Virus record (IMG/VR): IMGVR_UViG_3300027971_000029
Coordinates: 1-64,000 of that record
Origin: a virus
Direction: 5' to 3' (one strand)
DNA: 64,000 nt
Below, one piece after another: positions 21,731 through 49,033 of the stretch; the first letter of the stretch is position 1, and every line of letters begins with the position of its first letter. The notes below the pieces were generated by a model. It saw nothing but the letters and a program-made list of their open reading frames with translations. It was not told where the DNA came from and made no database searches. The translations under genes were made by a program, and so were the position numbers.

Positions 21731-21956
21731 TTGTGCCTCTCATAGCAATAACTTGCAATAATTGTTTAATCTCTTGCATATCTTCTTCTAGTTTTTGCAA
21801 ACGAGTTCTAGTGTCCTGTTGTTCATTCTTTTGAGCCAAAAGTCTTTTGCGAGTATTCTGAAATTGTTGGAGACCTTGTCTATCTGTATTTAGAACAGCT
21901 TGTGTAGACATGTCTCTAACATATTCAGTATTTTCTATTTTTACAAAATTTGTCAC
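21720..21956 (-). CDS. Small coiled-coil protein, GTG start
   Basis: This 78-residue protein opens MTNFVKIENTEYVRDMSTQA, then a helix rich in Gln/Arg/Lys/Glu (about 22-70), probably a coiled coil. The start is GTG (GTGA overlap with the 2053-codon gene), which is unusual here. The same type of small protein follows the large baseplate protein in marine T4-like phages. Function is unknown. Confidence 0.68.
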   Translation of the reverse strand: MTNFVKIENTEYVRDMSTQAVLNTDRQGLQQFQNTRKRLLAQKNEQQDTRTRLQKLEEDMQEIKQLLQVIAMRGTNGN

Positions 21957-24900
21957 GATAATGATGGTATAGCAATGACACGCAAGTCTTTGATTCTTGG
22001 TACTTTTGTAGAAGTAGTGTCGGTTGAAGTCATAACAATCTTAATGGCAAAATACTTGAATGATGTGAAACCATTACCATATCCAACTTTGTTAGAAGGT
22101 GTGCCTGCTGTTCCAGGCGCATATGTGTACTCTTTCAAGTCTTGCGCTGTGATAGACTTCAAGTTAGTGCCTGAAACCAATGTCATCAATTGGTAATTCT
22201 TTGAATCAAAAACATCGGTATCGTCAGCAGAAAGAATCTTGTAATAAACATAAATGTTTGCACTTGCTGGTTTGTATGCAGTAAACGACAGACGGAAGTC
22301 ACCAGCATCTAAACCATCAGCTAATGTTACTTTACGAGTTATATATCTTGCTCTTGCTGGACCACCAGATGGTTGGTCTTCGCCACTTGAAACTGCGGTT
22401 GCTTGAGTTGCTGATGGATTACCACCAGTGATTGTAACTGTTGGTGTGCTGGTATAACCAGAACCACCAGCATCAACAACAATACTTGAAACTTTACCAG
22501 CAGAGAATGTTGCATACGCATTAGCGCCTGCACCGCCACCGCCTGTGATTGATATCGAAACATTGCTGTTTGTGGTATAACCAAATCCTGGATTTGTTAT
22601 GATGATATCGGTATTAGCCAATGACAAATCATCAACATAGTTTTCAATTCCAAGCACACTCAATCTCTCAACATCAACAAGTGGAGAGATTTGTGTATTA
22701 TCAGAAGATAACAACAATCTGACTTTGAACGAGTTAGCATCAGATGTAAGAACACGGCGACCTAGTGTGTCATCAAAGAAAACATTTTCTTCAATGTTGA
22801 ATGAACGCATATTCTGACGCTCACCAGTTGAACTCAATGTTGTTGCATATTGTGTGCCAATCGATGTGTTTGGTAGAATTAAATTCTGTGATGTAACATA
22901 GAATGAGTCAACAGAAACATTTGATGTTGGCAAATCAGTTGAATCTAAACGGAACTCAACATTCGCTGTAACAGGGTCGTATTCTGCTCTCATAATACGG
23001 AACATCAAATCTTCTTCTTGAATTGCTGTCCAAGTAGATGAGTTTTGTGATTTGAAGAATGAACCAAGATATGGTTGAGTAGAAATAATTCTATCTGTGC
23101 CAACAAGTTTCTGACCAACTTCAGACACATAGACTTGATACTTGATAGAGTTGGCAATCAATACAACTGCATATTCAGTACCAGGCTGTAATGTCACAGG
23201 TCCATCAAATGTTACTGTGGTATACAATGCAGTGTCATCTAAAGGCTGTGTCAATGCAGGGTCAGAATATCTTGCTCTCATTGTCTCTTCAGAAACTTCT
23301 TTAATAGTATCTGGATTAACACTGATATCTGCATATGGCAGAATTTGTGAAGAATGTGGATAACCATTCACCACAGGGCGAATTTGAACTTGTACAGGAA
23401 TATCAGGGTCTTTTGTTTTGAACAATAGACGCACAGATGTAATTTGAACACCATTACCATATTGGCGTTGGTCAATAAAGAATGTCTGTGCTAATGGATC
23501 CCAATAGCCAACTCTAGCCCTACCAACAACTTGTTCACGAAGAACGGCATTTGAAGTTACTAATGTTCTATCATCTTGCAAATCGGTTCTCTTAATTACT
23601 GGAACACGAGTAGAAACAATTGTTGATTCTGTTGTCTGCAATAGACCTTGTGCATAGTATGTTGCATCACCATTTGTTGATGAAGAAGCCAATGCACCTG
23701 ATGTTGTGTCAGTGAGTCTGAATACTCTTTCACCAGTTCTGAATCTTGTATCAGTATTACTTGGAATAATGAACACACCAGAAACTTCACCTCTTCTATC
23801 AGAGTCAATTGTGCCGATAGAATATGTTGAAGTAGCGTCAGGTGTTGTTGTCCAATTTGAAGAAACTGTCGCTACTCTTGTAGTTACATTATATGAAGAG
23901 ATTGTTCTCTCTTGGCCAATTCCAGTTCCTGAAGTCACATAGATTGACTTACCAACATAGTTTGTATTTGCTATAGATGTGTTAGCTGTTGTATTGCTAT
24001 TTAATACATGGAAGTCTAAACTAATTGTGCTTGATGTTGCGGCATTCGCTTGACCAGAATAGTGAACAAATCCAGAGATGCGAGTATTAGCACCAGATGT
24101 TGCACCAATCAAGAAAGTAGCATTGCTTGTAACGATACGAACATTACCAACATTTGCATCATCGCCTGTTGAAATATTAACTACGCTTACATTTGTGACA
24201 GTAGCTTCATTGCGGTTCAATACGACAATAGCAGATGCTAAATTTTTGCTTGTTGCAGGTTCGTAAATTCTTACTGCTTCACCATTTTGATATGTGTCAA
24301 TGTATGCGGCAGTATTGCTAGAAACAACAATCTTGTTTGTTTTGTTTAGATAAGATTGAACCGCTTCACCATCAAAGAATCCATATAGTGATGTATTAGG
24401 TTTGAAACCTTTACCAACAAAGACAAGACCACGGGCACGAATGTATGGAATGATAGAAACATCAATAACACGATTACCAATATTCTTAGTGATTGTATCT
24501 GTCGAGAATTGTGTTCTAACACCGGTTCTTGATTGTTTTGTTGTTACATCAGCAACAGTTCTCTTAACAACATCTTCATACACTTCAACATAGTGACCTA
24601 AAGGTCCTAACCAACCTCTGTCTGCCGGAACTACTGTTTCATCTCTTTGATTCGTGATAGATGTTGAAAGAGTCTGCCATGAATTCCAATGAGCACCAAA
24701 AGTTTCAGGTGCAGATTTTTCAACTGTCTGAGCCAAGGCTGCCCAAGCATCATTGTCACCTTCAAGGTTAACAAGAACATCAGGCTTCTGGTCGGTGTCA
24801 ACCCAATTGTCAGATGATGGATCAAGTGAAATTGAGCCGATAAAAGATACAGCATTGAATGGGTTTACATTAACTGCTTTTGATGAGAATGGTTGGTCAA

Positions 24901-27900
24901 TCAATGTTGTTTCAGTATAATTGATTGACACCAACAAACCATTTCGTTTGTAGTTGCTACTGTTTGTTTCGTAAATATCTAATTGAGTATTATCAATTGC
25001 AAATGGTGGGCGAAGTTCTTGCTGTTGGGAATCGATAGATACTTTGTAATCAACATTCAAAACATCACCAATATTATGACCTGTGAATGGGTCAACAAGA
25101 ATACCATTCTTGAAACGAGCCAATCCAGTTTCATCGTCAGTGATTTGTGTTTCTTTAGCCGCTTTTTCAAGCAAGTTTAACGAAGTGTAATATTCAAGAT
25201 TACTAATTCTCTTTTCAAGCAAACCAATATCACGCATTGTGTAGCGGCGATTGTCGATAAACTTAACACGAACATTTTTAATGTTAGCAGTGTATGCAGG
25301 CAATGTAATTGTATACAATGTCATTGCATTTTCTTTATCTGCTGGCGCTGTTGGTGTCAACGAAGGTGTGCCACGAAGAACTTCAAATGTTCTATCTTTG
25401 GTAGCAATAACCTTATCGATTCTTGGCAAATAATATGAGAAGTCGGTTTCTAAATCTGTACCAGATTGTCCAAGAATAATCTCATCATATTGTCCAGTTG
25501 TATCGCCATTCTTACGGCGAGGTCTGAAGTCAATAGAATCAGACAATGCATAACTCAGTCCTGTCTGAGGTGAAGTATACATTGGAACTTCTGAGTAAGT
25601 CAACCCAGCATCGATATAAGAATCAACAGTCAAATAACCTGAACCAGTGTGACCATAGTAATTCAAATATACAACGGTATTACCTGTAGGTCCAGTTTTA
25701 TTTGATTTCAATGTGATTGTTGCATGGTCATAAGCATTATCTCTTTGACCAGAATCAAAATTGTAGTTGGATGTCAAGTCAGTTGCAAATGATAAGTTAG
25801 CTTGTGATGCAACATTCGAACCAAAGTCTTTAACAGCGGCTAACGAAATACCATCAGCAACATATAAAACTTGTGGGCTGTTTGGTGTTCTTAGTGCGGT
25901 TGTTGCTGTATTTGCAAAAACAAGTTGAGCACCATTAGCACCAGATGTTTGTGATGCTGTTAGAGTTATGCCAGTTGCAGGTGAAGTTGAAGAACTTGTG
26001 GTATCATACAATGAAGTATTAGCTAACAGTTTTTGTTTTGATTTACGAAGACTTCCCAATGAATGAGAATATGGTAAACGAACTTTTGTGTAAACTCTAG
26101 CGGATGCATTATTTGCACCATTGACAGTGATTGTATAAGTTGATGTATTGCCAGCAGTAGTCACTGTTACAGAATTGGCACTACTCATTAAATTGATAAC
26201 TGTACCATTAGCATATGTTGTGCCAGCACCAGTTAGAGTAATGAATAAATTATCAATAGCATCAGAAGTTGCTAATGGGCTTCCTGTGACTGCTGAACGA
26301 ATACCGGCGGCAGTTGTGAATGATAGGATGCCAGTTGAACCAAATGTACCAGCATACACTTTGCGCCCATAGTATTCGCTGTTTGTGATTGGTAAAGCAC
26401 CAGATGCTGTAGCATCAGCAATCGCCGCTTGTGGGAATTGGAATATTAACTGATTGAAGTTTGTTTCTGAAATGAATGCACCACGATATGCATCAACAAG
26501 AACATTGTTCTTATTTGCAGAGTTGACATCCATTCTTGTGGTAACAGTTGCACCAGAATTGATGATAAATGATTCAGCATCTTTGAATTCGAAGTCAAGT
26601 GAGAATTGTGTCGCTGTAGTTGGAGTACCAAACACGAAGTTTGGAGAAACTGTTGCGATTTTTGTATCACCACGATAGTTTGTGATTGTGACAATCTCAC
26701 TAACATTAGCACCTACATCTTTTACAATGCGAAGTTTTACACCATCATATGCATTGTTTTGTGTAGCGGCATTTGAATCAAGTGTGATTGTATTTGCTGT
26801 TCCTGATTGTGCATTAGCACTTCTATAAGAAACATTTGCATCAAAAACATATCCACGGAATACACCAGTCTTAATGCTTGTGCTATTTGCACCAGATTGA
26901 TAATCTAATGCACGAAGTCTAATTGTACCAATATTTGTAGCACTCAAAGTTGTGGTGCTTGTGGTATTCAAATTAGCCGTATCGGAACAATGAATGCTTA
27001 ATGGCTCAAATGTTTCTAATGGAATTGGTCCAGAAATATTTGAAACATCAACATAGTTTTGATAGCTGATTGTAACACCATAGTTTGTTACATTGGCAAC
27101 TTCACGAGCCTTTTCGGAGAGAAGAACTGTTGGTCCTTTTGTCTCAAACTCATATCCAAGAATGTATGCTTTACCAGATTCAAGAACAATATTGTATGCA
27201 TTGGCATATGTGTCGTTATCATTCAATGAGATTTGAAATGGGCGAACTGAATAGTTGCCAGACTCATCGTATGTTCTACGAGCAAGAGTCTTTTCAATTT
27301 CAGCGTATGTTGGGTACTGAATTGATTTTGTTAACTCACCATTCTTAACACGAAGCAATTCGATGAAACTTGTATCATCGGTACTTGTCAGAGACCTCTT
27401 AGATAAAGTGAGCGTAATTTTAAAACGAGTAGAACCTGGTGCTTGATAGTTAGATGCATCTTGTGCAGGGTCAAGCAATGAAGTGTCATTACTTTCATCG
27501 ATAACTTCTTCAGTGATTTGAAGACCTACCTTGTAAGAAGGTAGTGCATTATATCTTTCAAGAATGATTGATTGTGAACCAACTCTTGCAAAAAATCCAT
27601 TGACAAAGAATACACCATCATTGATATTGCAAACAGATGCGGAGCCTGTTGGGTCTACGCCAAAAACTGTTGCGAAAAAAATCTCATCTTCAGTTTCAAG
27701 ATTTTCGTTAGCAATGAAAATATCACCAGATGTATATTTTACAACGAGAGTTGGTTGATTGCCATCTTCACCAGCATCAACGGCAATAACATATGCACGA
27801 GTTCCACGACCAGTGGAATCTTGAATCCATTTACCATCGAAGTTTGCTACATCAATAGCATTGCTATTAAAAGTATTATTAACTCTAATAAAACCGACAC

Positions 27901-28114
27901 GCTCAACTTCAAGTGTGGTTTGTCCACCAACAACAAGAGAACCATTTTTAAACACATGCTGACCAAAACGGTCAACTTGTTTTTGAAGGGCTGTCTGTAA
28001 TTGTGTTAATTCACGAGCCTGAACGGCATAGCCAGGACGGAACAAAAGTTTGTAGAAATCTTTCGTTTCATCGAAATCATCATAATAAGGGTTTTGTGAA
28101 ATATCAATAGCCAT
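21953..28114 (-). CDS. Giant baseplate/tail structural protein (DUF4815-type)
   Basis: At 2053 residues this is the largest product in the window. The N-terminus (YYDDFDETKDFYKLLFRPGY at about 9-28, then ARELTQLQTALQKQVDRFG at about 33-51) is the DUF4815 opening found in marine myoviruses. The central body is a long beta-rich region. The C-terminal 200 residues carry GG.GY / PTVTITGG units and an adhesin-like segment (LADGLDAGDFRLSFTAYKPA). It replaces T4 gp9-gp12 in this position, so it probably links the baseplate wedge to fibres. The ribosome site is TAGGTAAAAC. Confidence 0.75.
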   Translation of the reverse strand: MAIDISQNPYYDDFDETKDFYKLLFRPGYAVQARELTQLQTALQKQVDRFGQHVFKNGSLVVGGQTTLEVERVGFIRVNNTFNSNAIDVANFDGKWIQDSTGRGTRAYVIAVDAGEDGNQPTLVVKYTSGDIFIANENLETEDEIFFATVFGVDPTGSASVCNINDGVFFVNGFFARVGSQSIILERYNALPSYKVGLQITEEVIDESNDTSLLDPAQDASNYQAPGSTRFKITLTLSKRSLTSTDDTSFIELLRVKNGELTKSIQYPTYAEIEKTLARRTYDESGNYSVRPFQISLNDNDTYANAYNIVLESGKAYILGYEFETKGPTVLLSEKAREVANVTNYGVTISYQNYVDVSNISGPIPLETFEPLSIHCSDTANLNTTSTTTLSATNIGTIRLRALDYQSGANSTSIKTGVFRGYVFDANVSYRSANAQSGTANTITLDSNAATQNNAYDGVKLRIVKDVGANVSEIVTITNYRGDTKIATVSPNFVFGTPTTATQFSLDFEFKDAESFIINSGATVTTRMDVNSANKNNVLVDAYRGAFISETNFNQLIFQFPQAAIADATASGALPITNSEYYGRKVYAGTFGSTGILSFTTAAGIRSAVTGSPLATSDAIDNLFITLTGAGTTYANGTVINLMSSANSVTVTTAGNTSTYTITVNGANNASARVYTKVRLPYSHSLGSLRKSKQKLLANTSLYDTTSSSTSPATGITLTASQTSGANGAQLVFANTATTALRTPNSPQVLYVADGISLAAVKDFGSNVASQANLSFATDLTSNYNFDSGQRDNAYDHATITLKSNKTGPTGNTVVYLNYYGHTGSGYLTVDSYIDAGLTYSEVPMYTSPQTGLSYALSDSIDFRPRRKNGDTTGQYDEIILGQSGTDLETDFSYYLPRIDKVIATKDRTFEVLRGTPSLTPTAPADKENAMTLYTITLPAYTANIKNVRVKFIDNRRYTMRDIGLLEKRISNLEYYTSLNLLEKAAKETQITDDETGLARFKNGILVDPFTGHNIGDVLNVDYKVSIDSQQQELRPPFAIDNTQLDIYETNSSNYKRNGLLVSINYTETTLIDQPFSSKAVNVNPFNAVSFIGSISLDPSSDNWVDTDQKPDVLVNLEGDNDAWAALAQTVEKSAPETFGAHWNSWQTLSTSITNQRDETVVPADRGWLGPLGHYVEVYEDVVKRTVADVTTKQSRTGVRTQFSTDTITKNIGNRVIDVSIIPYIRARGLVFVGKGFKPNTSLYGFFDGEAVQSYLNKTNKIVVSSNTAAYIDTYQNGEAVRIYEPATSKNLASAIVVLNRNEATVTNVSVVNISTGDDANVGNVRIVTSNATFLIGATSGANTRISGFVHYSGQANAATSSTISLDFHVLNSNTTANTSIANTNYVGKSIYVTSGTGIGQERTISSYNVTTRVATVSSNWTTTPDATSTYSIGTIDSDRRGEVSGVFIIPSNTDTRFRTGERVFRLTDTTSGALASSSTNGDATYYAQGLLQTTESTIVSTRVPVIKRTDLQDDRTLVTSNAVLREQVVGRARVGYWDPLAQTFFIDQRQYGNGVQITSVRLLFKTKDPDIPVQVQIRPVVNGYPHSSQILPYADISVNPDTIKEVSEETMRARYSDPALTQPLDDTALYTTVTFDGPVTLQPGTEYAVVLIANSIKYQVYVSEVGQKLVGTDRIISTQPYLGSFFKSQNSSTWTAIQEEDLMFRIMRAEYDPVTANVEFRLDSTDLPTSNVSVDSFYVTSQNLILPNTSIGTQYATTLSSTGERQNMRSFNIEENVFFDDTLGRRVLTSDANSFKVRLLLSSDNTQISPLVDVERLSVLGIENYVDDLSLANTDIIITNPGFGYTTNSNVSISITGGGGAGANAYATFSAGKVSSIVVDAGGSGYTSTPTVTITGGNPSATQATAVSSGEDQPSGGPARARYITRKVTLADGLDAGDFRLSFTAYKPASANIYVYYKILSADDTDVFDSKNYQLMTLVSGTNLKSITAQDLKEYTYAPGTAGTPSNKVGYGNGFTSFKYFAIKIVMTSTDTTSTKVPRIKDLRVIAIPSLS

Positions 28115-43609: not shown

Positions 43610-44188
43610 ATGGCATATCTAATTGACAGAATCAATCAACAACTAGCAAAAGAGGGTATCAAGCCAAGAACTGATGCCGCTCGGGCATGGTTACGCCAAG
43701 AGGTCGCTAATCTAAATCCTAGTCGTTCAGCAATGATGCGAGACCGTGAAAAGTTGCGTAATAGAACAATGATTGGTAGAATGTACTTTTATTTTTACGA
43801 CCCTAAACATAAAGCTACACTACCATACTACGATAGATTTCCTCTTGTTTTGCCAGTCGAAAGATATGCCGATGGATTCTTGGGATTGAATCTTCATTAC
43901 ATTCACCCAAAACAACGAATCATTTTACTTGACAAATTGAGTGACTTTGCGACAAATTCAAAATACGATGAAACAACTAGATTACGATTGACATATGCCA
44001 CATTGGCAAGTGCAACAAAAGCCTTTGAGGCTACACCGTGTATTAAGAGATATTTGTTTAATCATGTTGAAAGTAGATTTTTAGAAATTACAGCAGACAA
44101 ATGGGACATTGCCGCTCTATTACCATTCGAATACTTTGTTGGTGCAAGCAAGAGTAAAGTATTCAAAGACTCAAGGACAAAATTTTAA
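43610..44188 (+). CDS. DNA end protector-like protein (gp2 candidate)
   Basis: This 192-residue protein has conserved segments MYFYFYDPKHKATLPYYDRF at about 58-77, PLVLPVERYADGFLGLNLHY at about 78-97 and a C-terminal WDIAALLPFEYFVGASKS. It matches the conserved protein found beside gp4 in marine T4-like phages, where it is often labelled gp2. T4 gene 2 also lies beside gene 4. I prefer the ATG at 43610 (MAYLIDRINQQL) to the GTG six codons upstream, because the late box lies between them. Confidence 0.6.
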   Translation: MAYLIDRINQQLAKEGIKPRTDAARAWLRQEVANLNPSRSAMMRDREKLRNRTMIGRMYFYFYDPKHKATLPYYDRFPLVLPVERYADGFLGLNLHYIHPKQRIILLDKLSDFATNSKYDETTRLRLTYATLASATKAFEATPCIKRYLFNHVESRFLEITADKWDIAALLPFEYFVGASKSKVFKDSRTKF

Positions 44189-44922
44189 TGTTATCAGAAT
44201 TCTTAGCAGATATAAATTCAAAAAGTTATTCAAAGGCCAGTCACTTTGATGTTAGATTTCAATTGCCGGGGGCACTTGCATCTGGTGCTGGACAAGGTGG
44301 CGGCGGATTAATATCAAATAGAGATATTGCAATTCGATGCGAATCTGCTGATTTGCCAGGAAGACAATTAGTTACCATAGACAACAAAGTTTATGGACCA
44401 ATTTATAAAACTGCCTATCAATCTCTTTTCACTGATTTGAATTTAACTTTTTTAGAAACTAAAGATATGGATTTCAGATATGCTTTTGAGCGATGGATGG
44501 AATATATTCATCCAACTCTTGGAAGTAACGATGTTGAATACTATGATAGTTACACTGTGCCTATGACCATCACTCAATATGATATAGTTGGTGATATGAA
44601 TATTACAAGATATAAAGATAAATTAGTAGGTACCAAATATAAGAAGACTTTAACATATGGCATTATTGAAGCATTCCCAGTAAATATTAATCAATTGACT
44701 GGTTCATGGTCGGATGATGGTTTTCATAAATTACAAGTGTCTTTTGCATATCGAAGACATGTAATAGTTCAAGAAAAAGTGCCAGGTTTGCAAAACAGAA
44801 TACCACCAGCACCAGTTACTTCAGCACCTATAGCAGGAAGTGGTGCGGCAGGAAAACCACCAATCTTAGCATTCAATTTGCAAGGATTTCAACTTAATCG
44901 AAATATTGAAGATAATGCTTAA
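44188..44922 (+). CDS. Tail tube-like / baseplate tube protein (gp54-like position)
   Basis: This 244-residue protein has the tube-fold segments SHFDVRFQLPGALASG, IAIRCESADLPGRQLVTID at about 46-64, VYGPIYKTAYQSLF and MDFRYAFERWMEYIHP, then YYDSYTVPMTITQYDI at about 117-132. The C-terminal Pro/Ala region is unstructured. It lies upstream of the gp26 and tape-measure genes, which fits gp54 or another tube initiator. It begins in TAATG overlap. Confidence 0.6.
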   Translation: MLSEFLADINSKSYSKASHFDVRFQLPGALASGAGQGGGGLISNRDIAIRCESADLPGRQLVTIDNKVYGPIYKTAYQSLFTDLNLTFLETKDMDFRYAFERWMEYIHPTLGSNDVEYYDSYTVPMTITQYDIVGDMNITRYKDKLVGTKYKKTLTYGIIEAFPVNINQLTGSWSDDGFHKLQVSFAYRRHVIVQEKVPGLQNRIPPAPVTSAPIAGSGAAGKPPILAFNLQGFQLNRNIEDNA

Positions 44923-44952: not shown

Positions 44953-45675
44953 ATGGCTTTACCAAAAATTGATGTGCCTATATTTGAGATGACTTTGCCT
45001 TCAACAGCCAAGTCAATCAGATATAGACCTTTTCTTGTAAAAGAAGAGAAAATATTATTGATTGCAATGCAATCCAAAGAATCGAGTGTGATGATTGAAG
45101 CAGTAAAACAAATCATCAGTAACTGCGTTGTTGATGATATCGATGTCGATGATTTATCATTGTTCGATATTGAATATCTGTTTTTAAATCTTCGTGCGAG
45201 GTCCATTGGAGAAAAGGTAGATTTGAGATATCGATGCAACAATATTGTAGATGATGCTAAGTGTAATTTTGTTTCTGAGTATCAAGTTGACTTGTTGACT
45301 ATCAGACCAAAATTTACTGAAGGTCACACAAACAAAATTCAATTGACTGATAAGATTGGTGTGTTGATGACATATCCGAAATTCACAACATTCTCAAAAG
45401 CAACCAAATTAGAAACTAATGATGAGACTGCTTTCGATATTGTTTTAGATTCTATTGAAGCGGTCTATGATGATGAAGAAGTATATTATGCAAAAGATAC
45501 GAGCAAGCAAGAGATGAGAGAATTTATTGATTCTTTGTCCACAGAGCATCTTGTGAAACTTGAACAATTTTTTGATACTATGCCAAAGATAGAAGAACAT
45601 GTTCATTTCAATTGTCCAAAATGTAACCATGAAGACGATATTATCGTCAAAGGTTTAGAAAGTTTTTTCGTTTAG
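44953..45675 (+). CDS. 26: Baseplate hub / tail-assembly protein gp26 (PF12322-type)
   Basis: This 240-residue protein matches T4_baseplate (gp26): MALPKIDVPIFEMTLPST, KSIRYRPFLVKEEKILLIAM at about 21-40, IISNCVVDDIDVDDLSLFDI at about 55-74. Two CxxC-like pairs (residues about 222-225, FNCPKCNHED) suggest a zinc ribbon at the C-terminus. A clear GAGGAGA ribosome site precedes the start. Zero-frame translation stops at 45675, but a T TTT TTC heptamer just before allows a -1 shift into the extension at 45669-45866. Confidence 0.88.
   Translation: MALPKIDVPIFEMTLPSTAKSIRYRPFLVKEEKILLIAMQSKESSVMIEAVKQIISNCVVDDIDVDDLSLFDIEYLFLNLRARSIGEKVDLRYRCNNIVDDAKCNFVSEYQVDLLTIRPKFTEGHTNKIQLTDKIGVLMTYPKFTTFSKATKLETNDETAFDIVLDSIEAVYDDEEVYYAKDTSKQEMREFIDSLSTEHLVKLEQFFDTMPKIEEHVHFNCPKCNHEDDIIVKGLESFFV
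45663..45669 (+). promoter_or_regulatory. Candidate programmed -1 frameshift site (T TTT TTC)
   Basis: The heptamer T TTT TTC is in the right phase relative to the gp26 frame (AGT TTT TTC). It is followed two codons later by the zero-frame stop. After slipping, the -1 frame is open for 65 codons to the TAA at 45864-45866. No strong hairpin is obvious downstream. Confidence 0.6.
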
Positions 45676-45866
45676 CGTTTGGTTATGATACTCTTCAAAA
45701 CTATTTTATGGTAAACTTTGCTATGATGCAACACCACAAATATAGTCTGACTGAGTTGGAAAGTATGTTACCTTGGGAGAGAGTAATATATGTCAGTTTA
45801 CTGAGCCAGCACATTCAGGAAGAGAATGAAAAAATTAAACAACTCAATGCACAAAGAAGAAGATAA
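45669..45866 (+). CDS. Frameshift extension of gp26 (gp51-position / GT-like)
   Basis: This 65-residue segment in the -1 frame of gp26 begins RLAFGYDTLQNYF. It has MMQHHKYSLTELESMLPWER at about 19-38, a sequence conserved in this position in marine T4-like phages, and a charged helical end (EENEKIKQLNAQRRR). Its stop overlaps the tape-measure ATG (TAATG). An in-frame ATG at 45708 has no ribosome site, so frameshifting is the better explanation. Placement before the tape measure resembles lambda G/GT tail chaperones. Confidence 0.65.
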   Translation, partial: RLAFGYDTLQNYFMVNFAMMQHHKYSLTELESMLPWERVIYVSLLSQHIQEENEKIKQLNAQRRR

Positions 45867-48800
45867 TGGCAGAAAAAGCAATTAAAGTAGAACTATCCGA
45901 AGAAGATAGAAAAATACTTCTCGCCCAGAAAAAGGCGTTATCCGATATTCTGAAACCAGAAAAGAAGAGCAAGGGTATTGGCGCTATGGCTGCCGAAATG
46001 ATTCTTTCTGGAGAAAAGTCTTCTGTCATAGGTGCATTGGGTTCAGCAACCAAACAAAAAGCTACAGAATCTCTCCAAAATAAAACTGAACAACTTAAAG
46101 ATAAATTCGACCCACTAAACATAATTCACAGTATGTTTGGTGGCGGTGGTTTTGGTAGTGTTATGACTGCCGCCATTGGAAAAAGTATGGGTCGAGATGA
46201 AGATGATGTTCGTAAATTTGCAAGATTGGATCCAGCTGAAGATAGACCAGATGATGGTACCCCATCACAAATGCCAAGTGGTGAGGGTGGTGAAAAGAGC
46301 AATACCATGTTATCAGAAATGTTGAAGTATGTTATAAAAATTTCTGAAGACATTAGAGGATTAAAAGATTCTTCAAAAAATCAAGAAGGCCTTTTTAAAG
46401 ACCAAATTGAACTAGATGGAAAACAATTAAATCTAGAAGAGAAACAACTTGATGCCGCCAATGAAGCAAAATATGAGGCCGAGTTTGCAAAGAAAAAACC
46501 TACACCAGTGGGTGAAGATGGAAAAGATAAAAAAGAGACTAAAGAAGAAAAAGGATTCTTATCATCATTGTTAGGATTTGCTAGTGCATTGCGTATGATA
46601 GTAAGTGGTCCTTTCAAAGCCTTTGCCGCAATTTTAGGATTTGCATTATCACCTCTTCGTGCATTAGGAAAACTGCTCGGTGGTCCTTTATTGCGAGGTC
46701 TTGCGGCGGTTGGTGCCGCAGCACTTCCAGCCGCAAGAGCAATTGGTGCAAAAGCACTTGAGTATGGTGGTAAAGCAGTGACTGCCGCAACACCATATGT
46801 AAAAGCCGCAGGAGCAAAAGCACTTGAGTATGGTGGTAAAGCCTTAGAGGTCGGTAAATCAGTTGGTCGTTCAGCATTATCATATGCGGCAGAAAAAGCA
46901 CCACAACTAGTTGAAGGCGCTAAAGCATTTGGTAGTAAAGCACTTGATGTTGGTAAAAACATCGGCGCTAAAGTAGCAGAAAAAGCACCAGGTATTATAG
47001 AGGGTGTTAAGACTATGGGTGGTAAAGCACTAGAAGGTGCAAAATCACTTGGCGGTAAAGCATTGGAATCTGTAGGTCTTAAAGCCGCCGCACCAAAACC
47101 AGGATTTTTAACAGCGTTTGGTGAAGTGGGTGCAAAACGAGCCGCTGCCGCTGGTGCTGAGACAGCAGGTAAAGAAGGTATTGCCGCACTGATTAAAAAA
47201 GCGATTGCAAAAAGAGTTCCTAAAGCAGTTGGTTCTGCACTTGGAAAATCAGTACCATTTTTGGGTGCCGCTATTGGTGTTGGTTTTGCTCTTAGTCGTT
47301 TGATGGATGGTGATGTTGTTGGTGCTGGATTAGAAGCAGTCTCAGGTATTGGTTCTTTTGCTACAGCAATCCCTGCAACAATAGCACTTGTTGCAAAAGA
47401 TATCTATCAAGATGTTTATGGAGTTAAACCAGAATCAGACCCACAGTTTGGTGAGAGAATTGGATTGATTCAATCAGAAACTGAAGCCGCAGTGAAAGCA
47501 GAATTTGCTGGTAAGGTTGGAGAAGAAGAGAAAAAAGGCGGTGATAAAAAAGAGGGTGATAAAAAAGAGGGTGATAAAAAAGGCAATGCACCTGAAGAAA
47601 CAAAAGTTCCAGAAGCGCCTGAATTGAAAGGTGATACAAAGCAACAGGCTCAGCGTAAATCGGCTGAAGATACTGAATCTAGTATGAAACGCAATATGAT
47701 TACGGACAGAATCAACGCCGCAGGTGAAAACGCTAATGATCCTGATGTTCTCGCTGCCGCCGAAGAGTCGCTGAAACCAGGTTCGGAGGATTTTGAGACA
47801 GGATTAAAAAATCGTAGAAAAACAAAAACTGATGGAGGATTTAAACCAAAATCAGCACCATCACAAGTATCAAATTTAATGGACGGTGGTGGAGATGCTG
47901 TTGAACCTTTACCAGAAGAATCATCTGGAACAGGAGAAGACCTTGATGCTGAGTGGAATACAGATAATTATCCAACTATGTTTTATAGTTCATTTAAATT
48001 TGGGCAAGAAGACCCTGAGAATGCTAAAAAATATAACATATATCAAAGAACTCTTTCAGAAGAGTATGCATTGAAACGAGCAAAATCTTATGGTCGTGAT
48101 AAACCAAATCAAGATGATTATGATACAACTGGTGTGAAAGCATACAAAGATTCTTTATTGAAATTTCGTAAAGAACTTACGGCTTCAGGTGCGGCACTGT
48201 TTGGTGATGCACCTGCGGCAGAAGCGGCACCAGCAACTTCGCCATCACCTCCACCAGTAGAAGCACAATCAACACCACCACAAGAATCATCATCACAAGC
48301 GGCACCAACACCATTTGCATATTCAGCAACTCCAGAAGAAGATAACAATGATTATGCGGCGCCAGTAGAACCTGCGCCAGTAGAACCTTTACCAGCTGAT
48401 GCTTTTGAAACTGGTAAATTGGCTATAAAAGGTATGGTCAATAGTGCTGTAGATATGGACAAAGGTGCTCTTGCGCCTACGCAAGAAAAGGGAGAAAGAA
48501 CAGACTTCCAAATATCAACTCCACAAGGAACATTGATATTCCCAGACCAAGCTACTTTTGAGATGTGGAAACAAAAACCACAAAATGTAAGTTTTACTGA
48601 AATCCCTCAAGGGAAGTATGCACAAATAATAGAAGACCTTGGCTCTACAAAAGAAGAAAAGTTCAATGAGTCATTCCAAATATCAACACCACAAGGTACT
48701 CTGATATTCCCTGACCAAGCTACTTACAAAGAATGGCAGACTAATACACAAAATGTAGGGTTCACTCAAGGTCCTGAAGGGAAGTATGCTAAAACATTTG

Positions 48801-49033
48801 AATCTGCTGAATTGACACCAGCACGACCAACAACTGGTGAAAAAATGATGACTCAATCTAATGAAAATACTATGGCTAAGACAGAAGCAATGACTGGTGG
48901 TAACAATACAAACACTTCAATTGTGTCTGCACCAAAAGTTACAAATGCTACTAATGTAACGAATGCTCCAATCAATGTCAGAAACAGTGAGAACACATTC
49001 GTAAGAAATCAAGATAGAGTACACTATTTCTAA
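45866..49033 (+). CDS. Tape measure protein (gp29-like)
   Basis: This 1055-residue protein is probably the tail-length ruler. Residues 1-220 are helical and charged. Hydrophobic segments lie at about 235-300 and 450-510. Ala/Gly/Lys repeats (AKALEYGGKALEV, VAEKAPGIIEGVKT) run from about 300 to 400. The low-complexity stretch GDKKEGDKKEGDKK is near 558-571. Two repeats of FQISTPQGTLIFPDQATF lie near 881-898 and 937-954. The C-terminus (NATNVTNAPINVRNSENTF) is typical of marine T4-like tape/hub proteins. The start overlaps the frameshift extension stop. Confidence 0.78.
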   Translation: MAEKAIKVELSEEDRKILLAQKKALSDILKPEKKSKGIGAMAAEMILSGEKSSVIGALGSATKQKATESLQNKTEQLKDKFDPLNIIHSMFGGGGFGSVMTAAIGKSMGRDEDDVRKFARLDPAEDRPDDGTPSQMPSGEGGEKSNTMLSEMLKYVIKISEDIRGLKDSSKNQEGLFKDQIELDGKQLNLEEKQLDAANEAKYEAEFAKKKPTPVGEDGKDKKETKEEKGFLSSLLGFASALRMIVSGPFKAFAAILGFALSPLRALGKLLGGPLLRGLAAVGAAALPAARAIGAKALEYGGKAVTAATPYVKAAGAKALEYGGKALEVGKSVGRSALSYAAEKAPQLVEGAKAFGSKALDVGKNIGAKVAEKAPGIIEGVKTMGGKALEGAKSLGGKALESVGLKAAAPKPGFLTAFGEVGAKRAAAAGAETAGKEGIAALIKKAIAKRVPKAVGSALGKSVPFLGAAIGVGFALSRLMDGDVVGAGLEAVSGIGSFATAIPATIALVAKDIYQDVYGVKPESDPQFGERIGLIQSETEAAVKAEFAGKVGEEEKKGGDKKEGDKKEGDKKGNAPEETKVPEAPELKGDTKQQAQRKSAEDTESSMKRNMITDRINAAGENANDPDVLAAAEESLKPGSEDFETGLKNRRKTKTDGGFKPKSAPSQVSNLMDGGGDAVEPLPEESSGTGEDLDAEWNTDNYPTMFYSSFKFGQEDPENAKKYNIYQRTLSEEYALKRAKSYGRDKPNQDDYDTTGVKAYKDSLLKFRKELTASGAALFGDAPAAEAAPATSPSPPPVEAQSTPPQESSSQAAPTPFAYSATPEEDNNDYAAPVEPAPVEPLPADAFETGKLAIKGMVNSAVDMDKGALAPTQEKGERTDFQISTPQGTLIFPDQATFEMWKQKPQNVSFTEIPQGKYAQIIEDLGSTKEEKFNESFQISTPQGTLIFPDQATYKEWQTNTQNVGFTQGPEGKYAKTFESAELTPARPTTGEKMMTQSNENTMAKTEAMTGGNNTNTSIVSAPKVTNATNVTNAPINVRNSENTFVRNQDRVHYF
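46748..46842 (+). repeat. Direct repeat of 29 bases in the tape measure gene
   Basis: The same 29 bases occur at 46748-46776 and 46814-46842 (66-base period, 22 residues), encoding AKALEYGGKA. Diverged copies of the unit continue to about 47070. Confidence 0.85.
47540..47584 (+). repeat. Three tandem 15-base units (GDKKE)
   Basis: Three copies of a 15-base unit at 47540-47554, 47555-47569 and 47570-47584 encode GDKKE, GDKKE, GDKKG. It is a slippage-prone short repeat in a disordered linker of the tape measure protein. Confidence 0.9.

Follow-up and report, generated by a model that had tools for sequence, protein, structure and literature searches.

Evidence for a programmed −1 ribosomal frameshift joining gp26 to a gp51-like extension in a proposed tail assembly chaperone gene of a new phage lineage

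The gp26 locus described here is very probably a tail assembly chaperone gene of the G/GT type that uses a programmed −1 ribosomal frameshift. The window, meaning the whole stretch of DNA that was analysed (64,000 nucleotides), makes up the opening 64 kb of an IMG/VR virus record 124,557 bases long and belongs to a new phage lineage whose close relatives are also found in IMG/VR. Its gp26 gene ends just past the slippery heptamer T TTT TTC, from which the −1 frame runs on into a gp51-like sequence. Observed here are the architecture of the locus, the homology of its parts, and a signal that is conserved and at which the coding frame changes. With 178 distinct genes, the family provides a clear and dense data set for one frameshift signal. 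The main features of the locus are as follows.

44188..44922, plus strand: tail tube protein, upstream of gp26 (PHROG 45, E 2e-30; Pfam PF23849)
44953..45675, plus strand: gp26 homologue, proposed short chaperone form, TAC-N (PF12322 and PHROG 150 profiles; T4 gp26 alignment)
45663..45669, plus strand: slippery heptamer, T TTT TTC, which lies in the gp26 reading frame
45673..45675, plus strand: zero-frame stop codon of gp26, TAG, one codon past the heptamer
45669..45866, plus strand: gp51-like extension in the −1 frame, 65 codons plus stop (PHROG 634), with conservation that begins at the slip site; would supply the C-terminal part of a long form, TAC-NC
45866..49033, plus strand: probable tape measure protein of 1055 aa, from its position, length and Ala/Gly-rich hydrophobic stretches

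The gp26 product is 240 aa long and the 3' end of its gene reads GAA AGT TTT TTC GTT TAG, where a single sense codon, GTT, separates T TTT TTC from the stop. The protein matches the Pfam profile PF12322 (T4_baseplate; 207.7 bits, cut-off 24.5, E 2e-61) as well as PHROG 150 (E 4e-71). Between the heptamer and the TAA at 45864-45866, the −1 frame holds 67 codons if the two slip codons are counted and 65 beyond them, and its stop and the next gene's ATG (45866) overlap as TAATG; the +1 frame is shut within 13 nt. The extension is matched by PHROG 634 (‘gp51, baseplate hub assembly catalyst’) with an E of 1.2e-26 over profile positions 56-119 of 121, and it contains a HHKYSLTELESMLPWER core. A preliminary description of the sequence had pointed out the in-phase heptamer near the gp26 stop, the 65 open codons ending in TAATG with the next gene and a conserved-looking core; the sequence bears out all three, and the core is conserved across the family. 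The window has 75 ORFs that reach 100 aa or more; in-phase X XXY YYZ heptamers occur five times within their last 15 codons, and a −1 extension of more than seven codons follows only the one in gp26. As a separate observation, comparison of the window with six near relatives gave a summed 19 substitutions over 185 nt of the extension versus 94 over 199 nt of the gp26 end, and this lower load of the extension holds at all codon positions.

Relatives were drawn from IMG/VR and from annotated phages, and 212 loci with gp26, including the window, were obtained, two of which are cut off. In this analysed set, from which the Ackermannviridae and Vibrio phage D506 (known beforehand to be without the heptamer) and T4 with two T4-type Aeromonas phages (genes 26 and 51 separate) were left out before the count, T TTT TTN stands in phase near the end of gp26, at the same place, in 210/210 untruncated loci, which share descent and do not count as independent events. 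The 210 loci contain 178 distinct gp26 genes, and 95 of these are diverged, with identity around the slip site below 80%. The heptamer is TTTTTTC in 154 of the distinct genes, TTTTTTT in 23 and TTTTTTG in one. Elsewhere in gp26, in-frame X XXY YYZ is found at 131 of 22,313 positions. The FF codons at the slip site are fixed as TTT TTY (with one TTT TTG), and FF elsewhere in gp26 mostly occurs in other contexts. A chance heptamer is ruled out by the conservation in 210/210 loci, by this low background rate and by the uniqueness of the heptamer among the window ORFs. The gp26 stop follows zero or one codon past the heptamer in 161/178 distinct loci. Sixteen distinct loci, Pelagibacter phage Mosig among them, have the zero-frame stop eight codons past it. 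Column entropy at the three codon positions is 1.20, 0.87 and 1.65 in the zero frame before the heptamer and 0.98, 0.79 and 1.50 in the −1 frame after it. The third-position peak lies in the zero frame before the heptamer and in the −1 frame after it; therefore, the coding frame changes there.

The extension could instead be a separate small gene (gp51) that starts at an internal ATG, such as the one at 45708, and is translationally coupled to gp26, but this is very unlikely. Most public records do show it as a separate gene: many cyanophage records give gp51 as a gene of its own with an internal or abutting start, and public relatives annotate the extension as gp51 from such a start or omit it. 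In addition, some ATG is present within the first 30 extension codons in 84 of the 95 diverged loci. However, the first start codons of the extension are scattered in position across these 95 loci, and a start of any kind with a Shine-Dalgarno core occurs within the first 30 extension codons in only six of them. In the window, the extension ATGs at 45708, 45723, 45726 and 45765 are without a recognisable Shine-Dalgarno site. The protein is also conserved upstream of the scattered starts, right up to the heptamer; counted from the slip site in the diverged loci, L10 is kept in 89/95, N17 in 90/95 and F18 in 90/95. Across the 178 distinct loci, the extension spans 58-71 residues from the heptamer. 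A stop shuts the −1 frame immediately ahead of the heptamer in 19/178 loci, so that an upstream start is impossible in these, and in most loci the frame is closed within eight codons upstream. A separate gene would leave the invariant heptamer unexplained, and in T4 gp51 both parts are fused. A separate start for the extension was accordingly rejected, the starts being scattered and without Shine-Dalgarno sites. The preliminary description had held that the extension has no ribosome site of its own, which agrees with the window ATGs and with the count of six in 95. It had also named heptamer conservation in relatives as a test of the frameshift, which the 210 loci provide, and a separate ribosome site and start in relatives as evidence against it, of which no conserved example was found.

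Two sequence elements flank the heptamer as candidate stimulators of the proposed frameshift.

45649..45653, plus strand: AAAGG, a weak Shine-Dalgarno-like element 9 nt ahead of the heptamer, where relatives have GAGG(G/A)
45680..45703, plus strand: possible stimulatory hairpin, TGGTT-A-TGA[TACTCT]TCA-A-AACTA, which starts 10 nt past the heptamer and fits inside a larger fold at 45670-45716

Complementarity to the anti-Shine-Dalgarno sequence peaks, among the relatives, in 8-mers whose first base lies 14-16 nt before the heptamer, which places a GAGG core 9-10 nt upstream. Where Glu is encoded at that position, the codon is GAG in 39 of 49 cases, compared with the 15.9 that codon use in the same genes predicts (nominal p 2e-11). 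The upstream element of the window itself is weak (−3.3 kcal/mol). On the downstream side, the 48 nt past the heptamer fold in relatives with a mean of −8.8 kcal/mol versus −4.2 kcal/mol for synonymous re-draws. This fold beats its synonymous controls (p<=0.05) in 56% of loci, compared with 8% for the 48-nt stretch starting 60 nt past the heptamer. The downstream fold of the window beats 200/200 synonymous controls at 48 nt and 93% of them at 36 nt. Two registers of the hairpin recur with some compensatory changes (e.g. C-G in 6 and G-C in 13 at one pair), in groups that were picked because they pair. No trade-off between Shine-Dalgarno strength and hairpin strength was detected (Spearman −0.12, p 0.25). 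The contribution of this analysis is the comparative evidence, from sequence, for a putative Shine-Dalgarno-like GAGG upstream and a putative hairpin downstream in about half of the relatives.

The −1 shift of enterobacterial dnaX involves a slippery heptamer, a Shine-Dalgarno-like stimulator upstream and a hairpin downstream (PMC3711429). The gp26 relatives share this three-part layout, with the upstream element weak in the window. Since dnaX is a different gene with a different heptamer, it is a functional parallel and not a relative. It can be proposed tentatively, at slightly less than an even chance, that the gp26/gp51 shift in T4-like phages (of cyanobacteria, pelagibacters, rhizobia and others) is driven by a dnaX-like signal of three parts (GAGG 9-10 nt upstream, T TTT TTY and a hairpin) in mixed proportions, and that such a signal has been undescribed so far. 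The Shine-Dalgarno-like element and the hairpin provide testable predictions on what sets the ratio of short to long form.

The heptamer is a run of at least six T and several loci have 7-8 consecutive T, as might be expected if RNA polymerase, and not the ribosome, slipped on the T run and joined the frames. Such an origin is highly improbable. The T runs that usually provoke transcriptional slippage are longer than six T, whereas most loci have exactly six T followed by C, and a Shine-Dalgarno-like element with a downstream hairpin is characteristic of ribosomal frameshifting. An accidental overlap, or a sequencing error that split one ancestral continuous gene of the kind that T4 gp51 shows can exist, is barely credible and is refuted by the recurrence of the arrangement in 210 loci, from isolates and metagenomes alike.

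The heptamer is not present in every gp26 relative. In the Ackermannviridae loci, a conserved −1 extension follows gp26 without an X XXY YYZ heptamer. Their −1 frame is closed 10-22 nt upstream of the gp26 stop, and their zero frame ends ATT TTC ATT TAA, or GTT TTC ATC TAA in Serratia phage Kevin. In Vibrio phage D506 (locus L055, ~1872), gp26 ends CTT TTC AAG TAA TGG, and an ATG of the −1 frame overlaps the stop as TAATG. A stop-restart in place of a heptamer shift is possible in this phage.

In T4, gene 26 (208 aa, minus strand) adjoins gene 51 (249 aa, plus strand). In profile alignments, T4 gp26 aligns along its length to the short form (202 columns) and stops shortly after the slip position. 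T4 gp51 aligns to the fusion as a whole, in 234 columns that reach through the YSL..I..M.P.ER core. T4 therefore holds both forms as two genes. The preliminary description had likened the layout to that of the G/GT tail chaperones with gp26 as their counterpart, and this likeness is supported by an extension homologous to gp51 and by T4 genes 26 and 51 as separate short and long forms. Vladimirov, Gautam and Davidson (in Virology 2022, 566:9-15) reportedly found that frameshifting is kept in several T4-like groups and that genes 26 and 51 of T4 are separate. The idea of a G/GT-type chaperone in T4-like phages has already been published, as conveyed by passages in two later papers, one quoting Vladimirov et al. 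2022 on some T4-like phages that have a short gene and also a longer, fused one (PMC10885494) and the other citing them for poly-T slip sites in the TAC-N genes of T4-like phages (PMC12846349). The locus described here has the same protein families as their gp26/gp51 chaperones but comes from a different phage lineage. A 2010 review of T4 lists both gp26 and gp51 as hub assembly chaperones, with gp51 needed for assembly and absent from the particle (PMC3004832). T4 genes 26 and 51 have long gone by the names hub protein and hub assembly catalyst; the present results support reading them as the short and the long form of a single tail assembly chaperone. Where cyanophage and related records show gp51 as free-standing or leave it unannotated, as many do, it should be annotated as a joined frameshift product.

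The mechanism that we infer, with regard to slippage, its rate and the chaperone role, would be as follows. The majority of ribosomes would terminate at 45675 and release the 240-aa gp26 as the short form (TAC-N). The others, a minority, would move back by one base at T TTT TTC, with tRNA-Phe on TTT and TTC, and translate as far as 45866, producing a long form (TAC-NC) of ~304 aa with a gp51-like tail. By analogy with lambda gpG and gpGT, both forms would bind the product of the next gene, the probable tape measure protein; the long form may recruit tail tube subunits through its C-terminal part, and neither form would stay in the virion. Lambda gpG/gpGT resembles the arrangement proposed here: a −1 shift takes place shortly before the first gene ends, a short and an extended protein result, and the locus lies directly before the tape measure gene (a probable one in the window). 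The slip site here, T TTT TTC, differs from that of lambda, and gp26 is larger than lambda gpG. The long form is rare in lambda, at ~30:1 (PMC5009743). The chaperone locus of Vandenendeviridae and Andersonviridae likewise has a TAC-N, a −1 shift on a poly-T motif and a −1 frame that stays open as far as the tape measure gene (PMC12846349), although its motif, GTTTTT, differs from T TTT TTC.

An AlphaFold2 model of gp26 (39 aligned sequences) reached a pLDDT of 88, with a short helix predicted to close the chain at the slip site. Comparison of this model with the PDB placed 2ob9, the tail assembly chaperone of HK97, at ranks 3 and 5 with a non-significant E of 2.3-2.7, a structural likeness that is suggestive only. 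The best named matches in BFVD were other gp26-type baseplate hub proteins, and a sequence search for a solved relative of gp26 returned only weak matches of no evident meaning. The 1055-aa gene downstream gave no profile match to any named tape measure family and its protein no significant BLAST similarity to T4 gp29; its position, length and composition make a tape measure role probable. The points against the chaperone reading are the non-significance of the 2ob9 match, the downstream gene without a tape measure profile, the weakness of the window’s Shine-Dalgarno-like element and the Ackermannviridae extension without a heptamer. The genes in the window run in the order DNA end protector, tail tube, gp26, extension and long downstream gene, and the same order is found as far as the extension in Sinorhizobium phage phiN3, Rhizobium phage AF3 and Vibrio phages ValKK3 and CZ01. 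In Caulobacter phage Cr30, the annotated tape measure gene lies one small gene further on. Elsewhere in the window, the minus strand at 21953-28114 encodes a 2053-aa protein that matches PHROG 358 (function unassigned in PHROG) with an E of 0.
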